Positions 10,243 to 64,000 of a DNA stretch of 64,000 nt are shown here, one piece after another. The translations under genes and the position numbers were made by a program. Each line of letters begins with the position of its first letter. Within the stretch, counting starts at the first letter, position 1. The DNA lies in assembly GCF_001591385.1 (NCBI RefSeq), contig NZ_BCUU01000019.1, positions 1 to 64,000 of the forward strand. The letters run 5' to 3'. The notes under the pieces were generated by a model. That model saw only the letters and a program-made list of their open reading frames with translations. It had not been told where the DNA came from and did no database searches. Origin of the DNA: Variovorax soli NBRC 106424 (GTDB lineage: Bacteria; Pseudomonadota; Gammaproteobacteria; Burkholderiales; Burkholderiaceae_C).

Positions 10243-10290
10243 GGCTCTGGCTCGGTGTTATTCGTGAATATCGTGGGGTTCGATCTCGCA

Positions 10291-10317
10291 CGCTCCGAGG
10301 CGCCAGGCCCCGGAGCG
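10291..10317 (-). promoter_or_regulatory. Stem-loop in the iscR-iscS gap
   Basis: CGCTCCG (10291-10297) pairs with CGGAGCG (10311-10317) around a GC-rich loop. It sits between the iscR stop and the iscS start and has no T-run, so it does not look like a terminator. In E. coli, structure 3' of iscR protects the iscR part of the transcript when iscSUA is degraded. A like role is possible but unproven. Confidence 0.4.
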
Positions 10318-10331
10318 CCGTGTACGCAGGT

Positions 10332-10868
10332 TCAGGACTTGGCGAAGGCGTTGCCCAGCGCAAAGACCGAGTTCGGCGCGTTCACGCGGATCGGCTTGAC
10401 CACCGGCTGCGCCGAGATGGCGCGCTTGACCGCCGGCTTGTTCTCGACCGTGACGCCCTTGGCCAGTTGGTCGTCCACGAGCTTTTGCAGCGTGACGGAA
10501 TCGAGAAACTCGACCATGCGCTGGTTCAGCGACGCCCACAGCTCGTGCGTCATGCAGCGGCCGGCCTCGCCCAGGCAGTTTTCCTTGCCGCCGCACTGGG
10601 TAGCATCGATCGGCTCGTCGACCGACACGATGATGTCGGCCACCGTGATCTCGGAAGCCTTGCGGCCCAGCGAATAGCCGCCCCCGGGGCCACGGGTCGA
10701 CTCGACCAGCTCGTGGCGGCGCAGCTTGCCGAACAGCTGCTCGAGATAGGAAAGAGAAATCTGCTGACGCTGGCTGATAGCAGCCAACGTGACGGGACCG
10801 CTGTTCTGGCGCAGCGCCAGATCGATCATTGCCGTGACCGCAAAACGGCCCTTGGTAGTGAGACGCAT
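10332..10868 (-). CDS. iscR: Fe-S-sensing transcriptional regulator IscR (Rrf2 family)
   Basis: IscR represses the isc operon when it carries a [2Fe-2S] cluster. The 178-residue protein has an N-terminal winged helix (MRLTTKGRFAVTAM... LSYLEQLFGKLRR) and cluster ligands C92, C98, C105 with H108; there is one extra residue in the last spacing compared with E. coli. A Lys/Val/Pro-rich C-terminal tail extends past the core. It is first in its operon, with a type-1 IscR-like site in its promoter. Confidence 0.96.
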   Translation of the reverse strand: MRLTTKGRFAVTAMIDLALRQNSGPVTLAAISQRQQISLSYLEQLFGKLRRHELVESTRGPGGGYSLGRKASEITVADIIVSVDEPIDATQCGGKENCLGEAGRCMTHELWASLNQRMVEFLDSVTLQKLVDDQLAKGVTVENKPAVKRAISAQPVVKPIRVNAPNSVFALGNAFAKS

Positions 10869-11005
10869 CGCAAGCTCCTTATGTGCTTACCGTTGAAACC
10901 ACACCGGAATTTGTGACTCCGGTGGCTCGTCTCCGCCCTAACCGGCTTCCCGCGGCACTGGAGACCCAGTGAGTTGGAGCCGGCCCTTCATCGCGAAGTT
11001 CTTTT

Positions 11006-11034
11006 GTTGTTGAGTAATTGAGTCAAGTATACCA
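11006..11034 (-). promoter_or_regulatory. isc promoter (extended -10) overlapped by a type-1 IscR-like operator
   Basis: On the minus strand TGGTATACT (11034-11026) is an extended -10 without a good -35. From 11030 to 11006 the sequence ATACTTGACTCAATTACTCA plus CAAC matches the E. coli type-1 IscR motif (ATASYYGACTRWWWYAGTCR...) at about 21 of 25 positions. The site lies over the expected start point, about 140 bases before iscR, so holo-IscR bound there would block polymerase. Confidence 0.65.
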
Positions 11035-11117
11035 GAAACCCCGGGGCGCTCGGGGTAAACACCGATGGGAAAGGCCCAATCGGCCCAATTGACCGATTCG
11101 GGCACTTTCAATGGCGA

Positions 11118-13241: not shown

Positions 13242-13374
13242 AGGGTGTTCCCGCATCAGGTAGGTGGCAAACAGTAAAATTCAAGGGAACTGGATAGGTT
13301 AAACCCAGACCGCCAGTTGCAAGAAAGCCCGGCCACCGGCCCGGGTGCCCTCCATCCCAACCGACTTTTTCACC

Positions 13375-14571
13375 ATGTCCATGTTCAACGCCGTCGAAAT
13401 GGCGCCGCGCGACCCGATTCTTGGCCTCAACGAGCAATTTGCTGCCGACACCAATCCGAACAAGGTCAACCTGGGCGTGGGCGTGTACTACGACGACAAC
13501 GGCAAGCTGCCCCTGCTGGAGTGCGTCAAGGCGGCCGAGGCGGACATGCTCAAGGCCCCCACCGCCCGCGGCTACCTGCCCATCGACGGCATCGCGGCCT
13601 ACGACAGCGCGGTGAAGAACCTGGTGTTCGGCGCCGACAGCGAACCCGTGGCCACCGGCCGCATCGCCACCATCCAGGCCATCGGCGGCACCGGCGGCCT
13701 GAAGGTCGGTGCCGACTTCCTCAAGAAGATCAACCCGAACGCCAAGGTGCTGATCAGCGACCCGAGCTGGGAAAACCACCGCGCGCTGTTCACCAACGCC
13801 GGCTTCCCGGTCGAGACCTACCCCTACTACAACGCCGAAAAGCTGGGCGTGAACTTCGACGGCATGCTCGAGGCCCTGGGCGCCGCCCCGGCCGGCACCA
13901 TCGTCGTGCTGCACGCCTGCTGCCACAACCCGACCGGCTACGACCTCACCCCGGCCCAGTGGGACCAGGTGATCGGCGTGGTGCGGGCCAAGCACCTGGT
14001 GCCCTTTCTGGACATGGCCTACCAGGGCTTCGGCTTCGGCATTGCCGAAGACGGCGCGGTCATCGGCAAGTTCGTGGCGGCCGGCCTGACCTTCTTCGTG
14101 TCCACCTCCTTCTCCAAGAGCTTCAGCCTGTACGGCGAGCGCGTGGGCGCCCTGTCGGTGCTGTGCGAGAACAAGGAAGAAGCGGCGCGCGTGCTGTCGC
14201 AGCTGAAGATCGCCATCCGCACCAACTACAGCAACCCGCCGATCCACGGCGGCGCCGTGGTGGCGGCCGTGCTGAACAACCCCGAGCGCCGCGCCCTCTG
14301 GGAAAAGGAGCTGGCCGAAATGCGCGTGCGCATCAAGGCCATGCGCCAGAAGCTGGTCGACGGCCTCAAGGCCGCCGGCGTGAGCCGCGACATGGGCTTC
14401 ATCACCCAGCAGATCGGCATGTTCAGCTATTCGGGCCTGACCAAGGACCAGATGGTGAAGCTGCGCAACGAATTCGGCGTGTACGGCACCGACACCGGCC
14501 GCATGTGCGTGGCCGCCCTGAACAGCAAGAACATCGACTACGTCTGCCAGAGCATCGCCAAGGTCCTCTGA
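13375..14571 (+). CDS. tyrB: Aromatic/aspartate aminotransferase (class I, TyrB/AspC type)
   Basis: The 398-residue PLP enzyme transfers amino groups between aromatic or acidic amino acids and 2-oxoglutarate. It has LGVGVYYDD near the N-terminus, HACCHNPTGYD (PLP and carboxylate site), FLDMAYQGFGFG and the PLP lysine in STSFSKSFSLYGERVG. The C-terminal CVAAL segment with the substrate Arg (GRMCVAALN) is intact. The ATG at 13375 (MSMFNAVEMAPRDPI) matches the family; the 10-codon upstream extension does not. AspC and TyrB cannot be told apart by eye. Confidence 0.9.
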   Translation: MSMFNAVEMAPRDPILGLNEQFAADTNPNKVNLGVGVYYDDNGKLPLLECVKAAEADMLKAPTARGYLPIDGIAAYDSAVKNLVFGADSEPVATGRIATIQAIGGTGGLKVGADFLKKINPNAKVLISDPSWENHRALFTNAGFPVETYPYYNAEKLGVNFDGMLEALGAAPAGTIVVLHACCHNPTGYDLTPAQWDQVIGVVRAKHLVPFLDMAYQGFGFGIAEDGAVIGKFVAAGLTFFVSTSFSKSFSLYGERVGALSVLCENKEEAARVLSQLKIAIRTNYSNPPIHGGAVVAAVLNNPERRALWEKELAEMRVRIKAMRQKLVDGLKAAGVSRDMGFITQQIGMFSYSGLTKDQMVKLRNEFGVYGTDTGRMCVAALNSKNIDYVCQSIAKVL

Positions 14572-14580
14572 TTTCGTGAA

Positions 14581-14611
14581 CAAGTGAACGCGCCCCCGGC
14601 GCGTTCACTTG
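14581..14611 (+). terminator. Perfect 14-bp hairpin after the aminotransferase gene
   Basis: CAAGTGAACGCGCC (14581-14594) pairs perfectly with 14598-14611 around a CCC loop, nine bases past the stop codon. No T-run follows on either strand, so it may act as a transcript end protector or a weak or factor-assisted terminator rather than a classic intrinsic one. Confidence 0.5.
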
Positions 14612-14712
14612 GTGAGACGTTGGTACCCAGTCACATAGGGAACTTTCGCCTGCAAGCGGCATTCGGCCACTGATATATTGCACTGCAGCGAAGAAGAACC
14701 GAGGTCTCCCCG

Positions 14713-16101
14713 ATGCTCTACCAACTCTACGAAGCGCAACGCTCCCTCATGGAGCCGTTTGCAGACTTCGCCCAAGCCGCCTCCAAGCTCTTTGGCGCAG
14801 GCACCGGCTTCAGCCAGATGCCCATGGCGCAGCGCGTTTCCGCCGGCTACGACCTGCTCTACCGGCTCGGCAAGGACTACGTCAAGCCCGAGTTCGAGAT
14901 CAAGACCGTCAAGGTCGAAGACAACGATGTCGTGATCCAGGAAATCGTGGAGCTCGACAAGCCTTTTTGCGAGCTGCGCCGCTTCAAGCGCTTCACAGAC
15001 GACACGCACACGCTGTCCATCCTCAAGTCGCAACCGGTGGTGCTGATCGTGGCGCCCCTGTCGGGCCACTACGCCACGCTGCTGCGCGACACGGTGCGCA
15101 CCATGCTGCAGGACCACAAGGTCTACATCACCGACTGGAAGAATGCCCGCATGGTGCCGCTGTCCGAGGGCGAATTCCGCCTGGACGACTACATCAACTA
15201 CGTGCAGGACTTCATCCGCCACCTGCAGTCCGAATACGGCCACTGCCACGTGATGAGCGTGTGCCAGCCCACGGTGCCGGTGCTGGCCGCCGTCTCGCTC
15301 ATGGCCAGCCGGGGAGAGCAGCTCCCGCTGTCGCTCACCATGATGGGCGGCCCCATCGACGCCCGCAAGTCGCCCACCGCGGTGAACAACCTGGCGATGA
15401 ACAAGAGCTTCGAGTGGTTCGAGAACAACGTCATCCACCGCGTGCCGCACGGCTTCCCGGGTGAAGGACGCCGCGTGTATCCGGGCTTCCTGCAGCACAC
15501 GGGCTTCGTGGCGATGAACCCCGACCGCCACGCCAAGAGCCACTACGACTACTTCAAGGACCTGATCAAGGGCGACGACGCCAGCGCCGAGGCGCACCGC
15601 AAGTTCTACGACGAGTACAACGCCGTGCTTGACATGGACGCGGACTACTACCTCGACACCATCCGCACCGTGTTCCAGAAGTTCGAGCTGGTGCACGGCA
15701 CCTGGGACGTGAGGAGCCCCGAAGGCGCCATCGAGCGCGTGCGCCCACAGGACATCCGCACCAGCGCCCTGCTCACCATCGAGGGCGAACTCGACGACAT
15801 TTCCGGCTCGGGCCAGACCGAGGCCGCGCACGATCTGTGCACGGGCGTGAAGGCCGACAGCCGCAAGCATATCGAGGTCAAGGGCGCCGGACACTACGGC
15901 ATCTTCAGCGGCCGGCGCTGGCGCGACCTGGTGTATCCGCAGGTCAAGGAATTCATCACCGCGCACGACCAGCCGCAGAAGCACCGCAGCGCCCGTGCCT
16001 CGGCCAGTTCCGAAGACTCCATCCGCGCCGGCAGCCGGCCAGCGGCCCGCAAGAGCTCGACAGCCACCCCTCGCAAGAAGGTGGCAGCGGCGCGGCGCTG
16101 A
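14713..16101 (+). CDS. phaZ: Intracellular polyhydroxyalkanoate (PHB) depolymerase with a basic C-terminal tail
   Basis: The enzyme breaks down stored PHB inside the cell. The 462-residue protein matches the Cupriavidus PhaZ1 family: a lipase-box-like [11 protein letters not shown] holds nucleophile C184 (Cys in place of Ser), and GELDD and [10 protein letters not shown] supply the Asp and His of the triad. The core ends near residue 418 ([11 protein letters not shown]). A tail of about 45 residues rich in Arg, Lys, Ala and Ser follows ([16 protein letters not shown]), absent from the ~419-residue Cupriavidus enzyme as I recall it. rsxB begins 8 bases downstream. Confidence 0.93.
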
Positions 16102-51694: not shown

Positions 51695-52524
51695 CGCGCG
51701 CACCGCAACGCCTGGCCTACAACGACCCGACGTGGCTCGACACGCTGGCCGCCTGGCTGCTGGCGCTGATGTGGATCCTGCCGCTGGTCTACGCCTTCTG
51801 GACCGCCTTCCACCCGGCGCAGTTCTCCACCCGCTTCGACCTCGCGGCGCCGCTCACGCTGGACAACTTCAGCCGCGCCTGGGCGGCGGCCCCCTTTGCA
51901 CGCTACTTCCTCAACACCACCGTGCTGGTGGTCATGATCCTGGCGGTACAACTGGTGCTGGGCACCCTGGCGGCCTACGCCTTTGCGCGCTACAGCTTTC
52001 CGGGGCGCAACATCGCTTTCGCGCTCGTGCTGGTGCAGCTGATGATCATGCCGGACATCCTGGTGGTGGAGAACTACAAGACCATGGCTCGCCTGGGCCT
52101 GGTGGACACGCTGCTGGCCATCGGCCTGCCCTACTTCGCTTCGGCCTTCGCCATCTTCCTGTTACGCCAGACCTTCATGGGCATTCCCAAGGAGCTGGAC
52201 GAAGCCGCCAGGGTGGAAGGCGCCAGCGCCCTGCAGGTGCTGTGGCGGGTGTACGTGCCGCTGGCGCGGCCGGTCTACACCGCCTTCGCGCTCGTCTCGG
52301 TGAGCTTTCACTGGAACAACTTCCTGTGGCCGCTCATCGTCACCAACAGCCAGAACGCGCGGCCGCTCACCGTGGGGCTGCAGGTGTTCTCCTCGGTCGA
52401 CCAGGGCGTGGACTGGTCGATCATCACGGCCGCCACCGTCATGACCTCGGCGCCGCTGCTGGTGGCCTTCCTGCTCTTCCAGCGGCAGTTCGTCCAGAGC
52501 TTCATGCGCGCGGGCATCAAATGA
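51691..52524 (+). CDS. ugpE: Ugp-like permease subunit UgpE
   Basis: The 277-residue protein is the second CUT1 permease: six membrane segments, EAA loop (ELDEAARVEGASALQVLWRV) and NFLWPLIVTNSQNARPLTVG near the end. It overlaps ugpA and the following phosphodiesterase gene by 4 bases on each side, so all three are translationally coupled. Confidence 0.88.
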   Translation: MTRAPQRLAYNDPTWLDTLAAWLLALMWILPLVYAFWTAFHPAQFSTRFDLAAPLTLDNFSRAWAAAPFARYFLNTTVLVVMILAVQLVLGTLAAYAFARYSFPGRNIAFALVLVQLMIMPDILVVENYKTMARLGLVDTLLAIGLPYFASAFAIFLLRQTFMGIPKELDEAARVEGASALQVLWRVYVPLARPVYTAFALVSVSFHWNNFLWPLIVTNSQNARPLTVGLQVFSSVDQGVDWSIITAATVMTSAPLLVAFLLFQRQFVQSFMRAGIK

Positions 52525-53393
52525 TGAAACTGATCACCTGGAACACCCAGTGGTGCCGCGGGCTCGACGGCCTCGTCAGCCCCCGCCGCATCGTGGAGCA
52601 TGCACGCGGCATGGCCGACTTCGACGTGCTGTGCCTGCAGGAAATCGCCCAGGGCTTCGACGCCATGCCCGGCGCGCCGGGCGACCAGCCGGCCGAACTG
52701 GCGGCGCTGCTGCCCGGCTTCCAGCTCTTCTTCGGCCCGGCCGTGCACGAGTTCGACAGCAGCACCGGCCGGCCGCAGCGCTTCGGCAACCTGATCGCCA
52801 CGCGGCTGCCGGTGGCCCGGGTGCAGCATCACCTGTTGCCCTGGCCCGCCGACCCGGCCGTGGGCAGCATGCCGCGCATGTGCACCAGCGTGACGGTGCA
52901 AAGCAAGGAGCTGGGCGCCCTGCGCGTGATGACCACGCACCTGGAGTACTACTCGCAAGTGCAGCGCTCGGCCCAGGCCGAGGCATTGCGCAGCCTGCAT
53001 GTGGAAGCTTGCGCCCAGGCGATGTCGCCGCCCAAGCCCGAGTTCGACGACGCCGGCACGCCCTTCCAGCACAAGGTCCACACCGTGCAGGCCCTGTTGT
53101 GCGGCGACTTCAACATGCCCGCCACCGACCCGGCCTATGCCGCACTGCTGCAGCCCTTCGAGCTGGCCGGCGGATCGCGGCAGCGGCTGCACGATGCGTG
53201 GCCCGCCCTGCACGGCAGCGCGCAGCCGCATGCGCCCACCTTCCGCCTGTTCGACCGGCGCTACGGGCCGGATCCGGTCGCATGCGACTTCGTCTTCGTG
53301 AGCGACGGCCTCGTCCCTCGCTTGCGCCGCATCGAGGTGGACGGCGCCACGCAGGTGTCGGACCACCAGCCGGTGCTGGTCGAACTCGGTTGA
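52521..53393 (+). CDS. Endonuclease/exonuclease/phosphatase (EEP) family hydrolase in the ugpQ position
   Basis: The 290-residue protein has the EEP fold motifs: LITWNTQW at the N-terminus, metal-binding Glu in VLCLQEIAQG, MTTHLEYYS, CGDFNMP and the terminal VSDHQPVLVEL with catalytic Asp-His. No signal peptide is seen, so it acts in the cytosol. EEP enzymes split phosphodiesters or phosphomonoesters in nucleic acids, lipids or sugar phosphates. Coupling by ATGA overlap to the Ugp-like permease suggests it hydrolyses the imported phosphodiester, replacing UgpQ (a GDPD-fold enzyme). Substrate unknown. Confidence 0.85.
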   Translation: MMKLITWNTQWCRGLDGLVSPRRIVEHARGMADFDVLCLQEIAQGFDAMPGAPGDQPAELAALLPGFQLFFGPAVHEFDSSTGRPQRFGNLIATRLPVARVQHHLLPWPADPAVGSMPRMCTSVTVQSKELGALRVMTTHLEYYSQVQRSAQAEALRSLHVEACAQAMSPPKPEFDDAGTPFQHKVHTVQALLCGDFNMPATDPAYAALLQPFELAGGSRQRLHDAWPALHGSAQPHAPTFRLFDRRYGPDPVACDFVFVSDGLVPRLRRIEVDGATQVSDHQPVLVELG

Positions 53394-53424
53394 ATGCCGT
53401 CCCGCAATCGGCTTCGCTGAGGTA

Positions 53425-53441
53425 CCCTCCCGCGCGGAGGG
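53425..53441 (+). promoter_or_regulatory. Hairpin covering the ribosome binding site of the next gene
   Basis: CCCTCC (53425-53430) pairs with GGAGGG (53436-53441) around CGCGC. The right arm is the Shine-Dalgarno sequence of the gene starting at 53450. Folded, it would hide the ribosome binding site; what opens it is unknown. Confidence 0.5.
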
Positions 53442-53449
53442 ATTCAGCT

Positions 53450-55429
53450 ATGCAGCAAGCAGCGGCGCAGGGCCCCGGCGCGGGCTCTCGGATCAAGGTG
53501 GCCGTCCTCGGCGGCGGGCCCGGCGGCATTTCGGCGGCGTTCTGGCTGAGCGCGACGCCGGCCTTGCGGGCCCGGTACGAGGTCACGGTGCACACCCTGG
53601 GCTGGCGCCTGGGCGGCAAGTGCGCCAGCGGGCGCAACATGGTCGTCGGCGGGCGCATCGAGGAGCACGGCCTGCACGTTCTCATGGGCTGCTACCAGAG
53701 CGCCTTCCAGACCATTCGCCAGTGCTACGCCGAATGGCAGCCGCGCGCCTCCAGCCCCTTCAAGCTGTGGACCGACGCGATGACGCCGCAGTGGAAAGTC
53801 GCCGCCGAGGAGCAGGCGCCCAACTCAAGCCCGCCACGTTGGTCACCCTGGGAGTTCACCCTGCCCGAGCTTCCCGGCGAACCGGGTGACCCGCGCTTGG
53901 CCGACACCGATGCGCTCATCGGCAACCTGGCCGCCTGGCTGCATGGGCTGCTCGATGCGCAGCCGGAGCTGGCCGCCGAGTGGAGCTACGGCCCGGTGCT
54001 GGCACTGCTGGGGCGCCTGGCTTCGCCCTCGCTCTGCGAGAACGTCGACGAAGAAGCCGGCAGCCAGCTGCGGCAACTGGCCGAACGGGTGCGCACCCGG
54101 CTGGCGACACGCGGCCCCGCGCCGGCCGCGGTCGATTCGGCATTTGCGGACACGCTCTCGCACCTGCTGATCCTCGCGGACCTGGGCCTGTCCGCCGCCA
54201 TCGGCTGGTTCTTCGACCTGATGGGCAAAGGCCAGGCCGGCTACGACGCGCTGAACGCGCTGGACTTCCGCGCCTGGCTGGGCCGCCACGGCGCCACCGA
54301 CGCGGCGCTGAACAGTGCCCCCATCCGCGCGCTGTACGACCTGACCTTCGCCTACCGGGGCGGCGACGCATCGACGCTGGCCAACGGCTCCATCGCCGCC
54401 GGCGTGACCTTCCGCTTTGCCATGGACATGGTGCTGGGCTACCGACACGCGCCGTTCTGGAAGATGAATGCCGGCACCGGCGATGCCTTGTTCACGCCGC
54501 TCTACCAGGTGCTGGCCGCACGCGGCGTGAAGATCGAGCTGTTCCACCGCGTCGCCGGCATCGAGCTGAACGCCGATGCATCGCGCATCGGCACGATCCG
54601 CATCGACCAGCAGGCCGATTTCACCAACGGCGAGTACCAGCCCTTCGTGGTGGTGAAGGGTCTGGACTGCTGGCCGAACCAGCCCAACTGGGAGCAGCTC
54701 GTGGACGGCGAGCGGCTGCGCCAGGCCGGCGTCAATTTCGAATCCAGCCATGACACGACCGTGGCGAAGCAGCTCACGCTGGTGGACGGCCAGGACTTCG
54801 ACCAGGTCGTGCTGGCCGTGCCGCCCGATGTGATCCGGGCCGTGGCGCCTGCGCTGGCCGCGGCAGATGCCCGCTGGGCGAGCATGGTCGCGCAAAGCGT
54901 GTCGGTGGCCACCGAGGCCTTCCAGCTCTGGCTCCAGCCGGCGCTCGGCGAACTCGGGTGGCCCAGCAGCGCCACCATCGTCTCGGCCTATGCCGAGCGC
55001 TTCGATTCGTGGGCTGACATGTCGCAGCAGTTGCCGCACGAAGACTGGCCGGCGGCCGACACGCCTCAGGCCATCGAGTATTTCTGCGGCTGCCTGCCGC
55101 AGGACGCCTCGCACGCAGACCCGGAGCGGGATGTGCAGGCCTGGCTCGACGCCTCCATTGCCGGCCTGTGGCCTGCCGCCACCACGCCGGACGGCAAGCT
55201 GAAGCCGGGCGTGGAAATCTCGCGCTACTGCCGCGCCAACTGGGAAGGCGCCGAGCGCTATGTGCAAACGCCGGCCGGCAGCGTGAGCTACCGCCTGCCG
55301 CCGGGCCCCGCGCAGTTCGGCAACCTCTACCTTGCCGGCGACTGGACGCTGACCCGCTTCAGCGGCGGCTGCTTCGAATCCGCCATCGAATCCGGCATGC
55401 TCGCCGCCGCAGCCATCTCGGGCGGGTGA
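53450..55429 (+). CDS. FAD-dependent amine-oxidase-fold enzyme, copy 1 of a paralogous pair
   Basis: The 659-residue protein opens with the dinucleotide motif VAVLGGGPGGISAAFWLS and the amine-oxidase/phytoene-desaturase GG motif LGWRLGGKCASGRN. EEHGLHVLMGCYQSAFQTIR follows, and the C-terminal FAD motif is NLYLAGDWTLTRFSGGCFES. A long helical insert (residues ~150-300) separates the FAD and substrate parts. It shares motif order, LGWRLGGK and VNFES with the 740-residue enzyme encoded at 56403-58625. Relatives include hydroxysqualene dehydroxylases and carotenoid desaturases; the substrate is probably hydrophobic but unidentified. Confidence 0.8.
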   Translation: MQQAAAQGPGAGSRIKVAVLGGGPGGISAAFWLSATPALRARYEVTVHTLGWRLGGKCASGRNMVVGGRIEEHGLHVLMGCYQSAFQTIRQCYAEWQPRASSPFKLWTDAMTPQWKVAAEEQAPNSSPPRWSPWEFTLPELPGEPGDPRLADTDALIGNLAAWLHGLLDAQPELAAEWSYGPVLALLGRLASPSLCENVDEEAGSQLRQLAERVRTRLATRGPAPAAVDSAFADTLSHLLILADLGLSAAIGWFFDLMGKGQAGYDALNALDFRAWLGRHGATDAALNSAPIRALYDLTFAYRGGDASTLANGSIAAGVTFRFAMDMVLGYRHAPFWKMNAGTGDALFTPLYQVLAARGVKIELFHRVAGIELNADASRIGTIRIDQQADFTNGEYQPFVVVKGLDCWPNQPNWEQLVDGERLRQAGVNFESSHDTTVAKQLTLVDGQDFDQVVLAVPPDVIRAVAPALAAADARWASMVAQSVSVATEAFQLWLQPALGELGWPSSATIVSAYAERFDSWADMSQQLPHEDWPAADTPQAIEYFCGCLPQDASHADPERDVQAWLDASIAGLWPAATTPDGKLKPGVEISRYCRANWEGAERYVQTPAGSVSYRLPPGPAQFGNLYLAGDWTLTRFSGGCFESAIESGMLAAAAISGG

Positions 55430-55432
55430 CGC

Positions 55433-56392
55433 TCAGGTTCGCGACACCACCACCGCGCCCGGCAGCGCCTTGAAATCCATCGCCACCCAGGCGGCGATGT
55501 CGATGGGCACCGTCGTCTGGCCCGGGCTCGGCGCCGTGCCCAGAAGATCCTGCACGATCTGATGGCTCTCGCAGGTGGCGATCTTCAACTGGTAGTCGCT
55601 CGCGCGCAGCAGGCCGCCGCCGGAGAAGCCGGTCAGCTGCGCCGGCGAATCGACGATCGCCTGGAAGCAGGCGCGCGACGGATCGAGCGAATCGCGGAAC
55701 TGCTTCATCTGCACAGTCGGAATCACGGGGGCGCCGATCAGCGCATCGACCAGTTCGTGTTCGGCATCCGCAAGCACCGTTCCCAAAAGCCCTCGCACGG
55801 CATCGCGGCCGCTTGACCATTGCGAGGCCGCCGGCACAGGCGCCGGACCGGACACGGTCAGTAGGGCCGCGTTGCGCGCCGGCGTCTGCGGGGACAGCGT
55901 GTCGAACACGGTGGTGGTGCAGACAAAGTCCGTGCCAGTCCCAGGCGCCCCGGGCGCATCCCCCGGCACGGCAATCTGCGCGCCGACCTTGGGCCAGCCC
56001 CACACCTCCCGCCCGGTCAGCAGGCCGATGGTGTAGTCGATGAAGATGTAGGGCGTCCAGAAGACGATGCGCATCGCGCCGCGCTCGTGGTTCGTCTCGA
56101 GCAGGGGCACCCACAGCGCGCATTCGCGGCCCGGCTGCCAGCCGATGGCATCGACCTGCGAGGTGCAGTGCTCGATGGCCATGAAGCTGATCATCGAGAA
56201 GCCCGCCAGCACGCGGTAGCTCACGCGGCCGGCGCCCACCGGGTTGAGCAGCGAATCGACCAGCTTCTGCATCGCCCCGGCATCGGCCCGAAAGCCGAAG
56301 ACACAGGCCTTCGCGCCGGTGAACACCGCGGGCGGCGCCAGGCTGGCGGCGCCATGCCCGATCCAGGAAATGAAGGGAGGAAGTTCGGCCAT
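55433..56392 (-). CDS. Acetoacetate-decarboxylase-like protein
   Basis: The 319-residue protein resembles the ADC family, with the signature GREVWGWPKVGAQI. K135 matches the Schiff-base Lys (K115 of the Clostridium enzyme), but the neighbouring second Lys is Val136. True ADCs are about 245 residues, so this is a longer family member. ADC-like proteins decarboxylate or hydrate beta-keto and related acids through an imine. It lies 10 bases after the 740-residue FAD enzyme gene on the same strand and converges on the other FAD enzyme gene with 3 bases between. Confidence 0.78.
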   Translation of the reverse strand: MAELPPFISWIGHGAASLAPPAVFTGAKACVFGFRADAGAMQKLVDSLLNPVGAGRVSYRVLAGFSMISFMAIEHCTSQVDAIGWQPGRECALWVPLLETNHERGAMRIVFWTPYIFIDYTIGLLTGREVWGWPKVGAQIAVPGDAPGAPGTGTDFVCTTTVFDTLSPQTPARNAALLTVSGPAPVPAASQWSSGRDAVRGLLGTVLADAEHELVDALIGAPVIPTVQMKQFRDSLDPSRACFQAIVDSPAQLTGFSGGGLLRASDYQLKIATCESHQIVQDLLGTAPSPGQTTVPIDIAAWVAMDFKALPGAVVVSRT

Positions 56393-56402
56393 GGTGCTTC
56401 CC

Positions 56403-58625
56403 TTACTCGGCCCGCTGCGACGGCTTGCGCTGCAGGAAGTCGTAGCCGACGATGCGTGCGGGCTGCCCGCAGATGGCGCGCGACGCGGCCATGCCCGACA
56501 TCACCGCACCTTCGATCGCGGTGGTGTTGAAGCCGTGGCGCGTCGCCTCGCCGGCCAGGATCAGGTTGGCAAAGCCGCTTTCGGCCGGGTGCAGGCGGTA
56601 CTGCGTGGTGCCGGCGGCCGAGAGCACGCAGCATTCCGTCGGGTCGATGTTGGCGCGCAGAAACTGCTGGTCGAAGCGCGCCTCGCCGCTGGCCGATCCG
56701 CTGAAGTCGGTCAGCACGTCGAAGCGGAATTTGCCCTCCGCCGTGCGGGCCGCCGGCCAGATGCAGGCCGAGGCATCGTTGAGCCAGGTGATGGTCTGCG
56801 CGCGCAGTTCGTTCCAGGCCTGCACCGGCACGCCCGTTTCGGAAGACGGCTGGCGGTACAGCGTGGTGGCGTAGGTGCCGCACAGGTAGTGCAGCGACTT
56901 CGGCTTGGGAAAGCCCACTGCCGGTTCCACCGCCAGCACCTGCGACATGTCGGCCCAGATGTTCATGTATTCGGGCCCCGACACGGTGGCCGGCTTGCCG
57001 CTGGTCCAGCCGAGTTCCTCCAGCGTCTGGTTGGACCACAGCTGCAGGGCCTGGGTGGCCACGATGCCGATGTTCTGGACGAAGTCGGCAAAGCGCCCGC
57101 CTTGCTGCAGCAGCTCGTCGCACATCGTCGGCTCGCCGTTGAGCGGCTTGTAGGCGCCCATCGAGATGGCCAGCACCACGGTGTCGAACTCGCTGCCCTG
57201 CTTCAAGACCTCCTGGCCGGCGGCCGGCCAGTCGCACCAATGGCTCTCGAAGTTGACGCCGGCAGCCTTCATCTTCGCGCCGTCCACCAGCTGATCCCAG
57301 TCGGGTTCGCTCGGCCAGCAGACCAGGTTCTCCATCATGAAAGTGGGCTGGTAGTCGCCCTGCACCACATCCGCCTGGCGGTCCATGTGCACCGCGGCGA
57401 TCTGCTGGCCGTCCGGCGACAGCTCGAGCCGCGTCACCTTGCGGAAGAACTGCACCTTCACGCCGGCATCCAGCAGCGCCTGGTACAGCGGCGCCACCAC
57501 CGCCTCGCCCATGCCGGTCTGGATGTCCCACATCATCGCGCCCTTGAAGGTGCCCAGCAGCCGCGCGCACACGCCCAGCGCCGTGCCCGCCGCGTACGAC
57601 GGCCGGCTCACATCGCCGTCCGCATACTGGAACAGCGTGTCGTACACGATGCGGGTGACGGTGGAGTTGGCGACGATGTCCGGGTCGGCGCCGTGCTTGA
57701 CGAGCCAGGCGCGAAAGTCGATGTCGTCGAGCGATTCGAAGGGCCGGTCCGGCAGCACCAGGTCTGCGAAGTAGCCGGCCGCGGCAGCAATGGCGATGTC
57801 GATCAGTTCCCCCACCACCTGCAGCTCGATGGCCAGCGGCGTGCCCGGCGCAGCGTTCGCGCGTGCCGCCGCGGCGCGGAAGGCCGACTGCAGCAGCCGG
57901 TGCGTGTCCAGCAGTTGCACCACATGCTGCGGATCGGCCGCGGACGGCTCGGCCAGCAGCGACTTCATCCACAGCGCGCCGGCATCGGCCAGTTCGTGAA
58001 AGCCCAGCTGCACCGCTTGCGAACGGTCGAACAGCGCCTTGGCGCGCGCCAGTTCGCCATCGGCCAGCTGCACGAGCGCCGATGCGGCAAAGCTGCTGGG
58101 CAGCGGCTGGGGCGCCGGTTGGGCGGCGGCCTGCGCCGCGGCGTCGAGCCGGCCGATGAGACCCTTGACCACCAGCAGGAACAGGTTCCACATGGTGGTC
58201 CAGGCCTCGGCCGGCGTCATGTCCACGCCGCCCTGCCCCGGCGTTCCGCCATTGGTCGGCCAGGTCAGCGGAAAGTAGGTGTAGCCGGTGTCGGTCTTCA
58301 CGCCGATGGGCGTGTACAGCTGCGGCTTGGCGACATCGGTCCAGTGCTGCAGCGGGCAGTGCGGCGGCGGCGTCCGGTTGGCATAGATCTCCTGCACCAT
58401 GCCGAACACGTTGGCATAGCAGCCGAACCACACATGCAGGCCGTGCTCCAGGTTGCGGCCCCATGCGTCGCGCCCGCTGGCGGCCTTGCCGCCCAGGCGC
58501 CAGCCCAGCTGGTAGAGCGTGACCTCGTGCTGCGCGCGCAGCTCGGGCGTGCGCGTGAGCTCGTAGGCGGCGCTCAGGCCGGCCATACCGCCACCCAGGA
58601 TCGCGATCTTCTTCTTTCCGGTCAT
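56403..58625 (-). CDS. FAD-dependent amine-oxidase-fold enzyme, copy 2
   Basis: The 740-residue protein has IAILGGGMAGLSAAYELTRT, GG motif LGWRLGGKAASGRDAWGRN, EHGLHVWFGCYANVFGMVQ and C-terminal FAD motif NLILAGEATRHGFNTTAIEG. FGCYA, VNFESHW and the order of blocks match the 659-residue paralogue encoded on the other strand. GAGGAG precedes the ATG, which overlaps the stop of the cyclase/ATPase gene as ATGA, so their expression is coupled. An apparent longer frame running upstream into the cyclase gene is a shadow. The substrate is unknown. Confidence 0.82.
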   Translation of the reverse strand: MTGKKKIAILGGGMAGLSAAYELTRTPELRAQHEVTLYQLGWRLGGKAASGRDAWGRNLEHGLHVWFGCYANVFGMVQEIYANRTPPPHCPLQHWTDVAKPQLYTPIGVKTDTGYTYFPLTWPTNGGTPGQGGVDMTPAEAWTTMWNLFLLVVKGLIGRLDAAAQAAAQPAPQPLPSSFAASALVQLADGELARAKALFDRSQAVQLGFHELADAGALWMKSLLAEPSAADPQHVVQLLDTHRLLQSAFRAAAARANAAPGTPLAIELQVVGELIDIAIAAAAGYFADLVLPDRPFESLDDIDFRAWLVKHGADPDIVANSTVTRIVYDTLFQYADGDVSRPSYAAGTALGVCARLLGTFKGAMMWDIQTGMGEAVVAPLYQALLDAGVKVQFFRKVTRLELSPDGQQIAAVHMDRQADVVQGDYQPTFMMENLVCWPSEPDWDQLVDGAKMKAAGVNFESHWCDWPAAGQEVLKQGSEFDTVVLAISMGAYKPLNGEPTMCDELLQQGGRFADFVQNIGIVATQALQLWSNQTLEELGWTSGKPATVSGPEYMNIWADMSQVLAVEPAVGFPKPKSLHYLCGTYATTLYRQPSSETGVPVQAWNELRAQTITWLNDASACIWPAARTAEGKFRFDVLTDFSGSASGEARFDQQFLRANIDPTECCVLSAAGTTQYRLHPAESGFANLILAGEATRHGFNTTAIEGAVMSGMAASRAICGQPARIVGYDFLQRKPSQRAE

Positions 58626-61600
58626 GCAGGCTCCTCGATGTTGTGACTGGGGTTGTTCCAGCGTGGGGTCGGCAGCGCGGCGGGCTTCCAGGGGTTGGCG
58701 CCGAGCCGGTCCATGATTTGCATGCCGCGTGCCAGGTGTTCGCTGCGCTTGTCGGGCGACGCCTCCACCTCGGCCAGCGCCAGATGGCACAGCGCTTCTT
58801 CGAAGGGCAGCGCGAAATGCACGGCGTGGCCGATACCCTCGCGCCAGCAGGCTGCCGCCCGGGCGGGCCGGCCCAGGGCGAGCGCCAGGTGGCCGCGCAG
58901 CAGCCTTTCGCGGGCCTTGAAGATCACGATCTTGCTGGCATAGCTGGCGGCCGCGCGGCAGGCCGCGCGGGTCGATTGCAGCCGCGTGCGCAAGGGCACC
59001 CGGGCTTGTGCCGGACCCTGGGCCAGGGCCAGGTGCACCTCTGCCACCGAGGCCACGCTGAGCAGCGCGATGCCCATGGTCGGTGCGCTCTCCAGCATGT
59101 TCTCCAGCGCGGTGGTGGCGGCGCGCAGCGCCTGGCCGGCGTTGCCGGATTGCAGCTGCGCCGCCGCCTCGATGCCGTCGCACAGCAGCCGCTCGGCGCG
59201 GTGCAGCGCCTCGCTGCGTGCCAGCGCGATGCGATGCAGCACACGCGCCGGATCGCGCCCTGCCTGCATGTCGAGCAGGGCCAGTCCGCACAGAACCCAG
59301 GCCCGCACCGGCACGTTCTCGACCTGTTCGGCCTCTTCGCCATAGGCATTGAGGCGCAGCGAAGCCTTCGCATGGTCGCCCCGGAGCAGGTCGGCATAGG
59401 CCTGGATGACGCGGCACGACTGGGCGCGAAAGCGGTCGCCCAGCCGGTCGAATATCGCGGCGCCGGTGTCGCAGTGCGCGTCCATGTCGGCCCAGTGCCC
59501 GGCCTGGAAGGTGAAGACCGCCGCCAGAAGATGCGCGAAGCCCTGGTCGTGAAGCGTTCCCTGCTGCTGCGCCAGCGCGATCGCGCGGCGCCGGTAGAAG
59601 CCGGCTGCGCGATGAAAGCCCGCCGTGCCGAAGCCGATGGCCAGGCCGCCCAGGCCGCCCACCGTTTCTTCCACGGCCTGCGCGCGCTCGGCGCGGTTCA
59701 GCGAGGTGAGCGCATCGTGCAGCACGCCGAGCGCGTCGCCGCGGAAGTAGGCGCGTTCCGCATGCCGGGTGAAGATGTGGGCGCTGAGCTGGTCGCGCGC
59801 GCGGGCCTGCGCATTGCTGCTGGGCCGGCCCAGTCCGCAGCGGTGCATCAGCTGGCGCCAGATTTCCCTCACCAGGCTGCTCACGATGGCCGGGCGGCTC
59901 GCAGGCACGCGTATCTCGCTGAGCGAGGCGCACACGTTGAACCAGGTGTGGGCTTCCTCGAAGCGGGAGAGTTCGTGGCAGGCATCGCCCTGCAGGCGCG
60001 CCAGTTCGGCCTCCTGCTGCGTGGGCAGCACGATGCGCGCCTGCGCCGCCAGGCGCTGGACGTGGCCGACGTGAACCAGCGCGTCGTGGTTGGCGCTGCG
60101 CTCCAGCGAATAGCTGGCCGCCTGCTGCCGCCAGCGGATGGCGGCCTCGAAGCGCTCGGCCAGTTCCCAGTGGTGGGCCAGCTCGGCCGAATGCGGGTCG
60201 AGTTCGCCCGCATGGCGCCGCTCAATGAACTCGGCCAGCTGCTGGTGCAGCGGCTGGCGCTGGCGCAGGCTCAGCAGGTCGTAGGTGACCTCCTGGATGA
60301 TGGCGTGGTGAAAGACATAGGTGCCCGCCGACGGCGCCTCCGGCTCCAGGATGGCCGCGTCCGCCAGGTCCTTGAGCATGGCGCCCAGGCTGGCTTCGTC
60401 CAGCCCGAGCGGATGGATCGCCCGCACCACCTCGGCCGAGACGGAGCGGCCGATCACGCTGGCCACCTTGGCCGTCATGAGGTGCGAGGCCGGCAGGCCG
60501 TCCAGGCGGCTCACCACCAGGTCGCGCACGTTGGACGGAACGATGTTCGCATCCAGGTCGTGCTCGACCAGCCGGATCTTGCCGCCCCGGACCATGACCA
60601 CGCCGCGTTCGAGCAGGGCCAGCACCAGCTGCACGGCATGAAACGGCAGGCCGGCGCAACGTTGATGGACGAACTCCACCAGGCGCCTGGGCGCATCCGG
60701 CGTGCCCAGCAGGTCCACCACGATGGCCTCGATCGCATCGATGGGAAGGCGCGCCAGCGACATGCGCGGGCGCACCGGCTCGAACAGGCGCAGCGCATGC
60801 GGCGCGGCCGCGGCGTCCAGCGGCCGCGAGGCCAGCACCCAGAGCAGCTGCGGCAGTCGAGGATGCAGGCCGAACATCAACTGCGCCGAGGGCTCGTCGA
60901 TCCAGTGCAGGTCGTCCAGCGCCAGCACCAGCGGGGCCTGCGCCGCCATGCGTGCCAGCAGAACGGCGAGCAGGTCCTGCAGGCCGGCCAGGCGCGCCTG
61001 CCCGACGATCTGCGCCGCCAGGCCGTCGTCCTCGATCTGCAGCGGCAGGATGTCCTCCATCAGCGCCGCCTTGTCCGCCGCGGGGTCGCCGTGCAAGGCC
61101 TCGAGCAGCCGTGAACGCAGCAGCGAGGCCGGCGGCTCGGGCGGGTCGCCCGGCTTCCACAGCAGCCGCCGCACCAGCCCCCGACAGGCCGCGTACGCCT
61201 CGTGCGTCTGGAACGCCGAGGTCGTCATGATGATCACGGTGAAGCCGCGCGCCTGCGCTGCCCTGTCGAACTGCCGCAGCAGGTGCGACTTGCCGGCCCC
61301 CGACTCCGCCTCGATCGAGACGGCACCGCCGCGGCCCTGCGCCAGCGCGTCCAGCATCTGCTCGAAAGCCTGCGCCTCGCTCTCGCGGCCATGCAGCCAG
61401 GCAGGCCGGCGCGGCGGCGGCGTGCCGAGGTCCGGGCGCGCATCGTCGAAGCGGTGGGCCATCAGCGGCTCGCGCAGGCCCCGGACCATGAGCGGCTGCG
61501 CCTCGGTGAAGCGGAACCGCGCCGTGGCCGCGGCCGAGGCTGCGCGCACGGTCGCGTCGTCGATCAGGATGGCGCCGCCGGCGTTCTGCATGAGGCGCGC

Positions 61601-62722
61601 CGAGCGATGCATCAACGGCCCGTTGACCAGGAAGTGCCGGCGGCTGCGGTTGCCGACGTCGCTGCAGAAGGCACGCCCCGTGGCCACGCCGATCGAGGCT
61701 TTCACGCCCAGGCCGCGCAGGCTGGCGTGCATGCGCCGCGCGGCTTCCAGGCCGCGCGTGGCATCGTTCTCCCGCGCCTGGCCGGGCAGTCCGCAAGCCA
61801 GCACCGCGATCACGCCCTTGTCGCCCACCACCAGCTCGAACAGCCGGGCCGACAGCGGTTCGATGGCGGTGCGCATCGCCTCGATCCCGCGCAGGATGCC
61901 GTCGGCCGCATCCGGGGCGGCCGGGTCCAGCCCGCCCAGCAGCGTGTGGACCACGGTGATCATGCGGAACTCGGCCATCCAGCCGGCCTCGGAGGCGTCG
62001 GCGCGCTCGCCCACCACGCGCGGCAGGTAGCGGTGCGCCAGCGCGGCGGCGGCGCCTTCCGCGGCGAAGGGCTCGATGGCAGCCGGCGCCACCGCGCCGT
62101 TCAACGCGACAAGGCAGCTGAACGCGTTGCCGGAACTGCCGCCATCCGACGTCAGTGCTGCGGCGCCCAGGCATTGGACAAAACGCCGGCTCATGAAGAT
62201 CTCGCCGGGATCGCCCGCATGTGCCAGGCCCGCCAGTTCCCGGATCGGCGCACCCGTGACCGCGTGGTAGCCGCGGTCGCCCGGATTCTGGAACGTGACC
62301 GCGGTGACCGAACCGGTCGCCAGCGCGATGCGGTGCCGAAGCACCACGTCGAACACCAGCCGCCGGCCGTTGAAGGCGTCGCGCAGCGCGATGGCCGCGG
62401 CGGCGGCTCGATGTTCCGGGCCGCCCTGCCCCTGGCCTTCACGCCAGATGGCCAGCACGGCATCGCCTTCGATCTGCACCACGTCGCCGCCATGCGCGGC
62501 AACGATGTCGAACACCTCGCCGAAGTACTGGTCGAGCAAGGTTCCCAGGCGCTCGGCGCCATGCGGCCCTTGCGCCGCAAACCGCTCGGTCAGGCCGGAG
62601 GACCCGGCGATGTCGACCAGCAGCACGGCCGCGTCGAATTCATCGCGCCATGAGGGATGTGCGGCCGCGCCTGCGTGCAACTGCGTCTTCAACAAGCGAG
62701 AGACGTAGGCACCGGTTTGCAT
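58622..62722 (-). CDS. Soluble-adenylyl-cyclase-like protein: two cyclase domains + STAND/AAA ATPase + TPR-like repeats
   Basis: The 1366-residue protein has the layout of animal soluble adenylyl cyclase. Cyclase domain 1 (residues ~30-180) has both metal aspartates, D37 (LLVDIAGSSGLTERF) and D87 (VVQIEGDAVLAIW). Domain 2 (~250-390) has VGDKGVIAVLACGLPG and KASIGVATGRAFCSDVGNRS, but where the transition-state Asn of class III cyclases is expected (GxxVNxAxR) it reads GPLMHRSARL, i.e. His372 with Arg376 kept. The ATPase has Walker A ESGAGKSH (K478) and Walker B LVLALDDLHWID. The last ~550 residues are TPR-like helices. No signal or membrane segment. The ATG at 62722 is preferred to a TTG eleven codons upstream. 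Confidence 0.85.
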   Translation of the reverse strand: MQTGAYVSRLLKTQLHAGAAAHPSWRDEFDAAVLLVDIAGSSGLTERFAAQGPHGAERLGTLLDQYFGEVFDIVAAHGGDVVQIEGDAVLAIWREGQGQGGPEHRAAAAAIALRDAFNGRRLVFDVVLRHRIALATGSVTAVTFQNPGDRGYHAVTGAPIRELAGLAHAGDPGEIFMSRRFVQCLGAAALTSDGGSSGNAFSCLVALNGAVAPAAIEPFAAEGAAAALAHRYLPRVVGERADASEAGWMAEFRMITVVHTLLGGLDPAAPDAADGILRGIEAMRTAIEPLSARLFELVVGDKGVIAVLACGLPGQARENDATRGLEAARRMHASLRGLGVKASIGVATGRAFCSDVGNRSRRHFLVNGPLMHRSARLMQNAGGAILIDDATVRAASAAATARFRFTEAQPLMVRGLREPLMAHRFDDARPDLGTPPPRRPAWLHGRESEAQAFEQMLDALAQGRGGAVSIEAESGAGKSHLLRQFDRAAQARGFTVIIMTTSAFQTHEAYAACRGLVRRLLWKPGDPPEPPASLLRSRLLEALHGDPAADKAALMEDILPLQIEDDGLAAQIVGQARLAGLQDLLAVLLARMAAQAPLVLALDDLHWIDEPSAQLMFGLHPRLPQLLWVLASRPLDAAAAPHALRLFEPVRPRMSLARLPIDAIEAIVVDLLGTPDAPRRLVEFVHQRCAGLPFHAVQLVLALLERGVVMVRGGKIRLVEHDLDANIVPSNVRDLVVSRLDGLPASHLMTAKVASVIGRSVSAEVVRAIHPLGLDEASLGAMLKDLADAAILEPEAPSAGTYVFHHAIIQEVTYDLLSLRQRQPLHQQLAEFIERRHAGELDPHSAELAHHWELAERFEAAIRWRQQAASYSLERSANHDALVHVGHVQRLAAQARIVLPTQQEAELARLQGDACHELSRFEEAHTWFNVCASLSEIRVPASRPAIVSSLVREIWRQLMHRCGLGRPSSNAQARARDQLSAHIFTRHAERAYFRGDALGVLHDALTSLNRAERAQAVEETVGGLGGLAIGFGTAGFHRAAGFYRRRAIALAQQQGTLHDQGFAHLLAAVFTFQAGHWADMDAHCDTGAAIFDRLGDRFRAQSCRVIQAYADLLRGDHAKASLRLNAYGEEAEQVENVPVRAWVLCGLALLDMQAGRDPARVLHRIALARSEALHRAERLLCDGIEAAAQLQSGNAGQALRAATTALENMLESAPTMGIALLSVASVAEVHLALAQGPAQARVPLRTRLQSTRAACRAAASYASKIVIFKARERLLRGHLALALGRPARAAACWREGIGHAVHFALPFEEALCHLALAEVEASPDKRSEHLARGMQIMDRLGANPWKPAALPTPRWNNPSHNIEEPA

Positions 62723-62830
62723 GGCCGCCAACTGTAGGCGGCCGGATGCCGCCAAACCCCCAGGGAAACGCTAATCCGATGGTTCTACCCGGTCATGCCG
62801 ATCCTGCTGCACCCAAGCGTGCAGCGTGCG

Positions 62831-63037
62831 CTACTCGAGCGTGAAGCCCACCTTCAGTGTCACCTGCCAGTGCTGTACCTTGCCGTCGTGCACGTGGCCG
62901 CGCGTCTGCGTCACCTCGAACCACTGGATGTTGCGCACCGTCTCGGCCGCCTTGGCAATGGCCCGGCGCACGGCGTCGTCGCTGCTTTCGGTCGAGGAGC
63001 CGGTCAGCTCCAGATGCTTGTAGACATGGTTGCTCAT
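62831..63037 (-). CDS. Dodecin (flavin-storage protein)
   Basis: Dodecin forms hollow 12-mers that bind flavin pairs. The 68-residue protein matches the family: [40 protein letters not shown] with the Trp that stacks on flavin, and [13 protein letters not shown] at the end. AAGGAGA lies before the ATG at 63037. Lying beside three genes of a flavoenzyme cluster, it could buffer their FAD/FMN supply, though dodecins are common and often unlinked. Confidence 0.93.
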
Positions 63038-63193
63038 GGACTTCTCCTTGTGTTGAGCGTGCCGACGCTTGCGCATCACCTTGCGCGCCACCATTAAGCA
63101 GGCAAGCGCGCCCGGATTCAAGCCCGGGCGCGGCAAGGCCGACACACCGATCAGGCATCGACCGACACGCGCTCGGGCATGCAGGGCACCGAC

Positions 63194-64000
63194 ATGCACG
63201 TCGCGGCAGCCTGTAATTTCCCTGTGCACCCTGCGACCACTGCATCTCCCCGTCCGACGGCGACGACGCCGCTGCCGCCGCAGCCTCGGCTGCGGCAACG
63301 CGGGGGTAGCGGCGGTCCATCCGCGGTGCGTTCATCGCGGCGAGCAACGCGCTCCATCGCAGAACTGAGCGCCGTCTTCCAGGCCCCGCCGCCCCAGGCC
63401 TTGCGATGGGTCAACGACCAGGAGCTGGGCTATCGCCGGGTCAAGAAGGGCGAAGGCTTCGCTTATCTGGACACACGCGGGCGCCCGCTGCGCCGGCCCG
63501 CGGAACTCGCCCGCATCCGCGCCCTGGCCATTCCGCCGGCCTACACCGACGTCTGGATCTGCGCCAGTGCGGATGGCCACATCCAGGCCACCGGCCGCGA
63601 CGCGCGGGGCCGCAAGCAGTACCGCTACCACGCGGACTGGCAGGCGCAGCGCAGCGAATACAAGTTCGACAGCCTGCCCGCGTTCGGCCAGCTGCTTCCT
63701 GCGCTGCGCCGCCGGGTGCGCAGCCGGCTGGGCGGCGGCAGCGCACCGACGCGCGAGCGCGTGCTGGCCGCGCTGGTGCGCCTGCTAGACACCACCGCCA
63801 TGCGCGTGGGCAACATCGAGTACGCGCGCACCAACGGCAGCTATGGACTGAGCACGCTCAAGTGCAGGCATGTGCGCATCGGCAGGTCGAGCCTGCGGCT
63901 GGCCTTCGTCGGCAAGAGCGGCGTGCGGCACGACGTGGCCGTGGACGACGCGCGGCTCGTGCGCCTGATGCGCCGCTGCGCCGACCTGCCGGGACAGCAC
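63194..64000 (+). CDS. Type IB DNA topoisomerase, N-terminal part (runs off window)
   Basis: The frame is open to the window edge. It holds [59 protein letters not shown] and [20 protein letters not shown], all hallmarks of poxvirus-like topoisomerase IB, which relaxes supercoils through a 3'-phosphotyrosine. The catalytic Arg of RVGNIEYAR region is present; the active-site Tyr would lie past the edge. The first ~50 residues from the ATG at 63194 are low-complexity; a GTG at 63224 or 63326 could be the true start. Confidence 0.88.

Follow-up and report, generated by a model that had tools for sequence, protein, structure and literature searches.

A stretch of 64,000 nucleotides from Variovorax soli NBRC 106424 (contig NZ_BCUU01000019.1, positions 1 to 64,000; hereafter, the window) carries four adjacent genes, which encode two flavin-dependent enzymes (FAD1 and FAD2), a protein resembling acetoacetate decarboxylase (ADC) and a large protein with cyclase and ATPase domains (CYC). 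The question raised by this locus is whether the four genes work together and, if so, on what. As detailed below, the available evidence strongly supports the view that they form a conserved module. We found no description of this association of FAD, ADC and CYC genes in the literature, of which most subscription papers lay outside our coverage. The annotation of four plasmids names the parts separately, as NAD(P)-binding/FAD-dependent, acetoacetate decarboxylase family protein and hypothetical protein.

Organization of the four-gene locus

The genes are as follows (aa, amino acids; AF2, AlphaFold2).

53450-55429, + strand: FAD1, 659 aa, phytoene-desaturase/HpnE-like flavin enzyme, the module's second paralogue (PF01593, E 4e-18)
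55433-56392, - strand: ADC, 319 aa, acetoacetate-decarboxylase-fold protein with predicted Schiff-base Lys135 and acidic Glu90 (PF06314, AF2)
56403-58625, - strand: FAD2, 740 aa, predicted phytoene-desaturase-fold flavin enzyme with a helical region at about residues 138-290 (AF2/Foldseek)
58622-62722, - strand: CYC, 1366 aa, two class III cyclase domains with altered substrate residues, AAA_16 and a long C-terminal part

An earlier reading of the window, made without database searches (the sequence-only reading), had described these four genes as standing together, with overlapping stop and start codons and a 10-base gap. All of this is present: the CYC stop and the FAD2 start overlap in ATGA, and 10 bases separate FAD2 from ADC. 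To judge from this spacing, CYC, FAD2 and ADC are probably co-transcribed. FAD1 and ADC are convergent, with 3 bases between them. FAD2 also matches PF01593 (Amino_oxidase; E 1e-19), and the paralogy of the two flavoenzymes is apparent from a blastp alignment (51% over 101 aa) and from the placement of both in one family tree. That the paralogues lie on opposite strands, as the same reading had it, is correct for the window but is not the general layout. Among other loci carrying relatives (given L numbers here), both FADs share a strand in L045, L052 and L063, and the second one is fused to ADC in L055, L059, L060, L062, L066 and L067.

Conservation of the gene neighborhood

Relatives of the flavoenzymes were detected in at least 576 genome stretches by a genome_contigs scan using alignment A1, which omits L038 (a stop codon lies inside its stated range), with a loose E cut-off. 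The best 80 of these stretches are the named loci L043-L122; many are close kin, many are from Oxalobacteraceae, and they are not independent. Neighboring genes were called by codon usage and clustered by blastp. We counted an ADC if it was within 5 kb, and a CYC if its match exceeded 100 bits.

On this basis, an ADC lies within 5 kb of the FAD2 relative in 71 of the 80 named loci, and in 46 of the 80 ADC and FAD are part of a single called gene. CYC is nearby in 35, at least two FADs occur in 27, and all four genes are present in 21. ADC or CYC is present in 78 loci, with neither in L081 and L107. When the loci are collapsed to 43 labels (the genus, or the record title if there is no genus), 35 of these have an ADC and 24 a CYC. 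The ADC counts are low estimates, as Pfam adds L080 and, slightly below its cut-off, L112; ADC tails that the ADC profile missed were found by Pfam in L132, L035 and, at that same marginal score, L112. A whole-genome search identified the module's ADC as the sole PF06314 gene of the window's genome. Given only one such gene, we estimate that an ADC would be found within 5 kb by chance at a rate of roughly 0.2% per locus.

Random draws of genomes (see below) contributed eight newly met loci. ADC is present in four of these (L131, L134 and L135 by profile, L132 by Pfam) and CYC in three (L130, L132 and L134); the contigs of L135 and L139 are only about 5 kb long. We found no hidden ADCs among the neighbors in L130, L133, L139 and L140. 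The sequence-only reading had made its module depend on the families being neighbors elsewhere. This is the case in distant genera, where the module is conserved, but within the same genus full-length FAD2 relatives occur in only 4 of 36 genomes, and these are distant.

Shared inheritance, and gain or loss of the block

A tree of both flavoenzymes, which the sequence-only reading had proposed as a check, was built by quick maximum likelihood (77 rows) and contains two parallel, well-supported clades. The FAD2 clade has 22 rows and a Shimodaira-Hasegawa-like approximate likelihood-ratio test (SH-aLRT) value of 100, and the FAD1 clade has 14 rows and a value of 96. Ten loci (the window, L045, L048, L049, L052, L058, L061, L063, L065 and L071) have one member in each clade with a similar branching order, and both clades draw on one set of organisms, which ranges from alphaproteobacteria to Myxococcota. 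In a group from Bradyrhizobium, Chelatococcus and Ruegeria, the FAD2-clade enzyme is paired with a second FAD of another clade. In five of six rows (L055, L059, L062, L066 and L067), this second FAD forms a fusion with ADC; the same holds weakly for L069, which has only a weak match to the ADC profile.

Pairwise distances among FAD1, FAD2, ADC and CYC correlate at 0.953-0.979 for every protein pair, based on 28 non-independent comparisons among eight chosen loci. These loci have four separate genes; L044, L049, L051, L054, L056, L057, L061 and L109 were left out even though they too carry the module's parts.

The block also behaves as a whole between two genomes of the same genus, one of which has all of it and the other none. 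In G035, homologues of both genes that flank the module stand side by side. The relevant features are these.

53387-62830, no strand: block missing in same-genus genome G035 (collinearity on both sides)
52521-53393, + strand: left flank gene, 290 aa (gene call; its homologue adjoins dodecin in G035)
62831-63067, - strand: right flank gene, dodecin (PF07311, E 8e-31)

We take the left flank gene to be endonuclease/exonuclease/phosphatase-like, and the genes that precede it to encode an ugp-type ABC transporter. Collinearity of the window with G035 ends at position 53386 and resumes at 62831; in G035 these two points are 43 bp apart. A metagenome-assembled genome (L043) contains the module, and its collinearity with the window extends over 17.7 kb at 87.5%.

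Both a gain in the window's line and a loss in G035 are possible. Gain is favored because 36 same-genus genomes lack close orthologues, and because the nearest FAD2 relatives after L043 and L044 are alphaproteobacterial, which the window's organism probably is not. Acquisition by horizontal transfer is most likely. A comparison of the block's ends (141 and 221 bases) revealed no common direct or inverted repeat of at least 8 bases. GC content at third codon positions is 0.87-0.92 in the module's genes, slightly lower than in seven flanking genes (0.90-0.97).

The flavoenzymes

We predicted structures using AF2 for FAD2 and ADC, and compared their folds with Foldseek. The FAD2 model (predicted local distance difference test, pLDDT, 90.4) has as its top match the rice phytoene desaturase 5mog, with a template-modeling (TM) score of 0.76 by target and 0.50 by query (E 3e-16), so the modeled enzyme has a phytoene-desaturase fold. 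The next matches are LSD1, amino-acid and amine oxidases, and protoporphyrinogen oxidase.

Among NCBIfam models, HpnE (TIGR03467) is the best match of both flavoenzymes, with 74.2 bits for FAD1 and 67.8 bits for FAD2 versus a cut-off of 283. The phytoene/zeta-carotene desaturase models (TIGR02731 and TIGR02732) yield at most 57 bits versus cut-offs of 569-622. Our enzymes resemble HpnE and the plant-type phytoene/zeta-carotene desaturases in fold, in their FAD-binding N-terminus and in a presumed hydrophobic substrate, but they score far under the equivalog cut-offs. They are also larger, at 659 and 740 residues, as compared to 430 positions in the HpnE model and 467 residues in the 5mog chain.

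In L097, three consecutive FAD paralogues (9191-16087) follow a kinase-type regulator; this locus has a weak ADC match that might reflect a divergent ADC.

The ADC-like protein

ADC scores 32.5 bits with PF06314, marginally over the gathering cut-off of 29.8. The solved folds nearest to its AF2 model (pLDDT 91.6) are acetoacetate decarboxylases, SbADC, MppR and Swit_4259. Both the score and the modeled fold place it within the ADC superfamily.

In the alignment with solved ADCs, Lys135 of the window's ADC falls on the first Lys of their PKK motif, a residue that we take to form the Schiff base. This position is kept in 81 of 84 ADC domain rows. In alignment A3, which consists of the window's protein and 26 others (28 ADC picks minus L102 and L122), Lys is present in 27 of 27 rows, as is Glu or Asp at window position 90. 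The adjacent Lys-Lys pair of acetoacetate decarboxylase proper is absent, with Val following the Lys in the window's ADC. The module's ADC thus shares its fold and Schiff-base Lys position with other superfamily members (CaADC, the aldolase-dehydratase SbADC, MppR and Swit_4259), but it is larger, has 11-16% identity in the structural matches listed, has its second Lys replaced and is often fused to a flavoenzyme.

Some proteins related to ADC have other architectures. A single open reading frame (ORF) in L071 (13946-15838) joins cyclic-nucleotide-binding and ADC domains. L102 (14963-18898) and L122 (11279-15067) encode ADC-related proteins of about 1260-1310 aa that possibly contain several tandem ADC-like domains.

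The regulator

CYC resembles solved soluble adenylyl cyclase (sAC; E 3e-20 in a PDB set). In Pfam, it matches AAA_16 (E 7e-18), and its match to Guanylate_cyc is sub-threshold. Like sAC (ADCY10), it has tandem class III cyclase domains followed by an AAA ATPase. However, the positions aligned with Lys95, Thr405 and Asn412 of sAC are occupied by Gln, Leu and His in the window's CYC; both metal-binding Asp residues and the transition-state Arg are kept.

We extended this comparison to the 21 rows closest to the window's CYC, which include the C-terminal half of a split gene (L066) and a truncated locus (L109). The adenine-selecting Lys occurs in none of the 20 rows with a letter at that position (one of which is the L066 half), and the accompanying Thr/Asp in none of the 21. 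The two metal-binding Asp residues are found in 19 of 21 rows, the exceptions being L109 and L066. Of the transition-state residues, Arg is present in 18 of 21 rows and Asn in 13 of 21. Because the more distant cyclases of L101 and L112 keep the adenine-selecting Lys, its loss is a feature of this CYC subtype. The sequence-only reading had assumed an ordinary adenylyl-cyclase sensor, and this part of it is not supported in that form. With the base-selecting residues gone, the product of the window's CYC is probably not ordinary cyclic AMP (cAMP), and we regard such an output as doubtful.

Other lineages have a different regulator. Those of Azospirillum (L034) and L130 contain Ser/Thr kinase, AAA_16, GAF and histidine-kinase domains, and N-terminal kinase-like motifs occur in L080, L097, L115 and L121. 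Since Ser/Thr kinases occur in these lineages, the AAA_16 ATPase is the common part of the regulators. The TOMM kinase/cyclase family (TIGR03903) is also similar to CYC, but the match covers only residues 320-891 and scores 165 bits versus a cut-off of 706, and Pfam found no kinase domain in the window's CYC.

Possible readers of a cyclic nucleotide are encoded near some relatives. A cluster of cyclic-nucleotide-binding proteins has members in five loci, namely Crp-like genes in L035 (annotated), L042, L058 and, by similarity, L061, and the L071 ORF described above. A further Crp-like gene is in L132.

Neighbors and precedents bearing on the substrate

FadL-type porins import fatty acids. A cluster of such porins is found in 9 of 90 loci, four of them from Azospirillum, and was checked with Pfam in L034, L042, L050 and L064. 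Polyprenyl synthases form a cluster in 6 of 90 loci, were checked with Pfam in L040, L042, L102 and L122, and are also present in L131. In L134, a carotenoid oxygenase of the RPE65 family (12363-13817, E 8e-125) is encoded between the FAD and CYC of a full module. The sequence-only reading had suggested that a hydrophobic compound might be made or degraded. Such a substrate is favored by the fold and by the above neighbors, the latter in a minority of relatives.

Separately, we noticed a sister cluster (L131 10631-15981; L040, L042, L102 and L122) that combines an FAD, an uncharacterized protein of 210-305 aa, a polyprenyl synthase and at least one ADC-like protein. It also has a saccharopine-dehydrogenase-like protein, which was not seen in L102.

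There are two precedents for ADC-family proteins in lipid metabolism. In the conjugated linoleic acid (CLA) system, the hydratase belongs to another FAD family. According to the accessible portion of one article, CLA-DC of Lactiplantibacillus plantarum belongs to the ADC family and takes part in a lipid double-bond pathway, where it joins other enzymes acting on a long unsaturated lipid; this pathway differs in including a dehydrogenase, and the regulators named in that portion are of other types (PMC9241672). NXD1 has an ADC-family annotation and a carotenoid phenotype, as stated in excerpts of two articles (PMC12923008, PMC8151144), and an Anabaena (cyanobacterial) homologue of the plant protein was found in carotenoid-bearing lipid droplets (PMC12923008, in the same excerpt). 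The excerpts describe no flavoenzyme partner or operon for NXD1. In the available part of a third article (PMC7056318), NXD1 is mentioned in one reference-list line only.

Possible functions of the module

We lean towards the explanation that the four genes are one horizontally acquired, regulated module in which flavin and Schiff-base enzymes act on a hydrophobic polyene or prenyl lipid. FAD2 and FAD1 would be flavin-dependent desaturases, isomerases or oxidases of the phytoene-desaturase type, and they would act in succession or as a pair on this long molecule. The ADC-fold enzyme would act on the same molecule via a Schiff base on its conserved Lys, either removing CO2 from an oxo intermediate or shifting a double bond within it. 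Because ADC is fused to a flavoenzyme in many lineages, it probably handles the flavoenzyme's direct product or substrate. CYC would be a dedicated switch, in which the AAA_16/STAND-type ATPase is the sensor and the cyclase-like part, elsewhere a kinase, reports the signal. If the genes do constitute one pathway, this gives a concrete target, namely the conversion of a hydrophobic substrate by flavin and Schiff-base chemistry under a dedicated regulator. Because fusion of ADC to FAD recurs, the enzyme part can be tested from one expression construct, and the altered cyclase raises the question of which second messenger, if any, is made by this type of regulator.

A rather unlikely version is that the block, mobile across many phyla, encodes a hitherto undescribed lipid pathway in which a flavoenzyme and an ADC-fold Schiff-base enzyme, often fused in a single polypeptide, form or degrade a compound derived from a polyene or prenyl lipid. 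The STAND-type ATPase would be the switch, and its cyclase domains, without their adenine-selecting residues, would make a cyclic nucleotide other than cAMP that is read by the cyclic-nucleotide-binding partners.

It is important to emphasize several points that weigh against our preferred explanation. The substrate is deduced indirectly, and the AF2 models bear on the fold alone. Only a minority of loci have hydrophobic-type neighbors; the polyprenyl-synthase loci (L039-L042, L102 and L122) are in a different FAD clade from the window's genes, and RPE65 is found in only one of the loci examined (L134). NXD1 resembles the module's ADC by family name only, and one review, in its accessible part, calls plant NXD1 cytosolic and of unknown function (PMC8151144). 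In the window's CYC, three substrate or transition-state residues are changed, and catalysis is uncertain. As to the module itself, the 80 named loci are those that match the window best, and they include many close relatives; STAND-type regulators are common, and the chance estimate given above applies to ADC only. The distance correlations compare the four module proteins only with one another, and shared host history may account for part of them. Finally, three of the eight random-draw loci (L133, L139 and L140) have neither ADC nor CYC, so distant FAD relatives can stand without partners.

This last observation is also what might suggest a chance or purely genomic neighborhood with no shared function. 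However, we consider such a neighborhood scarcely credible, given an ADC in 71 of 80 loci (fused in 46), the parallel clades and correlations of 0.95-0.98; fusions and synteny across phyla speak strongly against it, and the plain version is rejected by the parallel FAD clades and the 80-locus synteny. The alternative that deserves most attention is that the trio of enzymes acts on unsaturated fatty acids, or on oxo derivatives of these, rather than on isoprenoids, in the manner of the CLA system with its oleate hydratase, dehydrogenase and CLA-DC. This is possible, if on balance unlikely. It is in keeping with the membership of CLA-DC in the ADC family (PMC9241672, accessible portion), with the FadL-type porins that adjoin several loci, and with a weak match of FAD2 to the MCRA family (E 0.0017, below the cut-off), but the fold and profile matches favor phytoene desaturase and HpnE, and some relatives have a polyprenyl synthase or, in one case, a carotenoid oxygenase.

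A place for FAD1 and FAD2 in a known hopanoid/squalene or carotenoid pathway would have undone the module idea as the sequence-only reading framed it, and it might seem plausible in that HpnE is the top NCBIfam match of both and HpnC and HpnD are encoded in the genome. We nonetheless judge it very unlikely, as both scores are far below the HpnE cut-off. Moreover, contig C49, apart from the module, encodes HpnC and HpnD, which are the genome's only two SQS_PSY matches, together with an HpnE that is over the cut-off (343.5 bits). The low scores and this separate set led us to reject FAD1 and FAD2 as the genome's HpnE, and we did not find them to be canonical members of the pathway. Another idea is Pycsar-type signaling or defense, in which the cyclase would produce a non-standard cyclic nucleotide and its three neighbors would serve as effectors. 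PADLOC's PycC models do match the N-terminus of CYC, if weakly (best E 3e-8), its base-selecting residues are unlike those of adenylyl cyclases, and some relatives have cyclic-nucleotide-binding partners. Against this, the PADLOC search detected no effector family among FAD1, ADC and FAD2: at E 0.01, FAD1 and ADC have no match, and the sole match of FAD2 is a desaturase entry. The regulator is also kinase-type in other lineages. The defense reading is weak on this check, and we regard Pycsar membership as highly improbable.

Distribution of the flavoenzyme family

Across 61 genomes, comprising that of the window and 60 related ones, full-length relatives of FAD2 are rare. Beyond the window's own, they occur in 4 of 36 same-genus genomes and in G048, from another family of the same order, with 31-35% identity. 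The four same-genus relatives are in a different cluster; of the other same-genus genomes, 26 have short N-terminal matches only and 6 have none.

We also searched random, partly overlapping draws of genomes with alignment A4 (42 of 60 FAD picks, plus the window) at E <= 1e-30. The family was present in 5 of 398 genomes of the phylum and 3 of 369 genomes of the class, counting the window's own in each case, and in 3 of 385 genomes of the class of G308, G308 itself being one. The 80 named loci are labeled Pseudomonadota (65), Myxococcota (5), Cyanobacteriota (3) and Verrucomicrobiota (2), with one each from Spirochaetota, Acidobacteriota, Planctomycetota and Bacteroidota, and one unassigned. 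Among viral_contigs, no relative of FAD2 was confirmed.

Other features of the window

At the end of the window, positions 63326-64000 contain the start of one ORF, which we presume to resemble topoisomerase IB. The sole tRNA gene found in the window is a tRNA-Val (cac) at 4484-4558.

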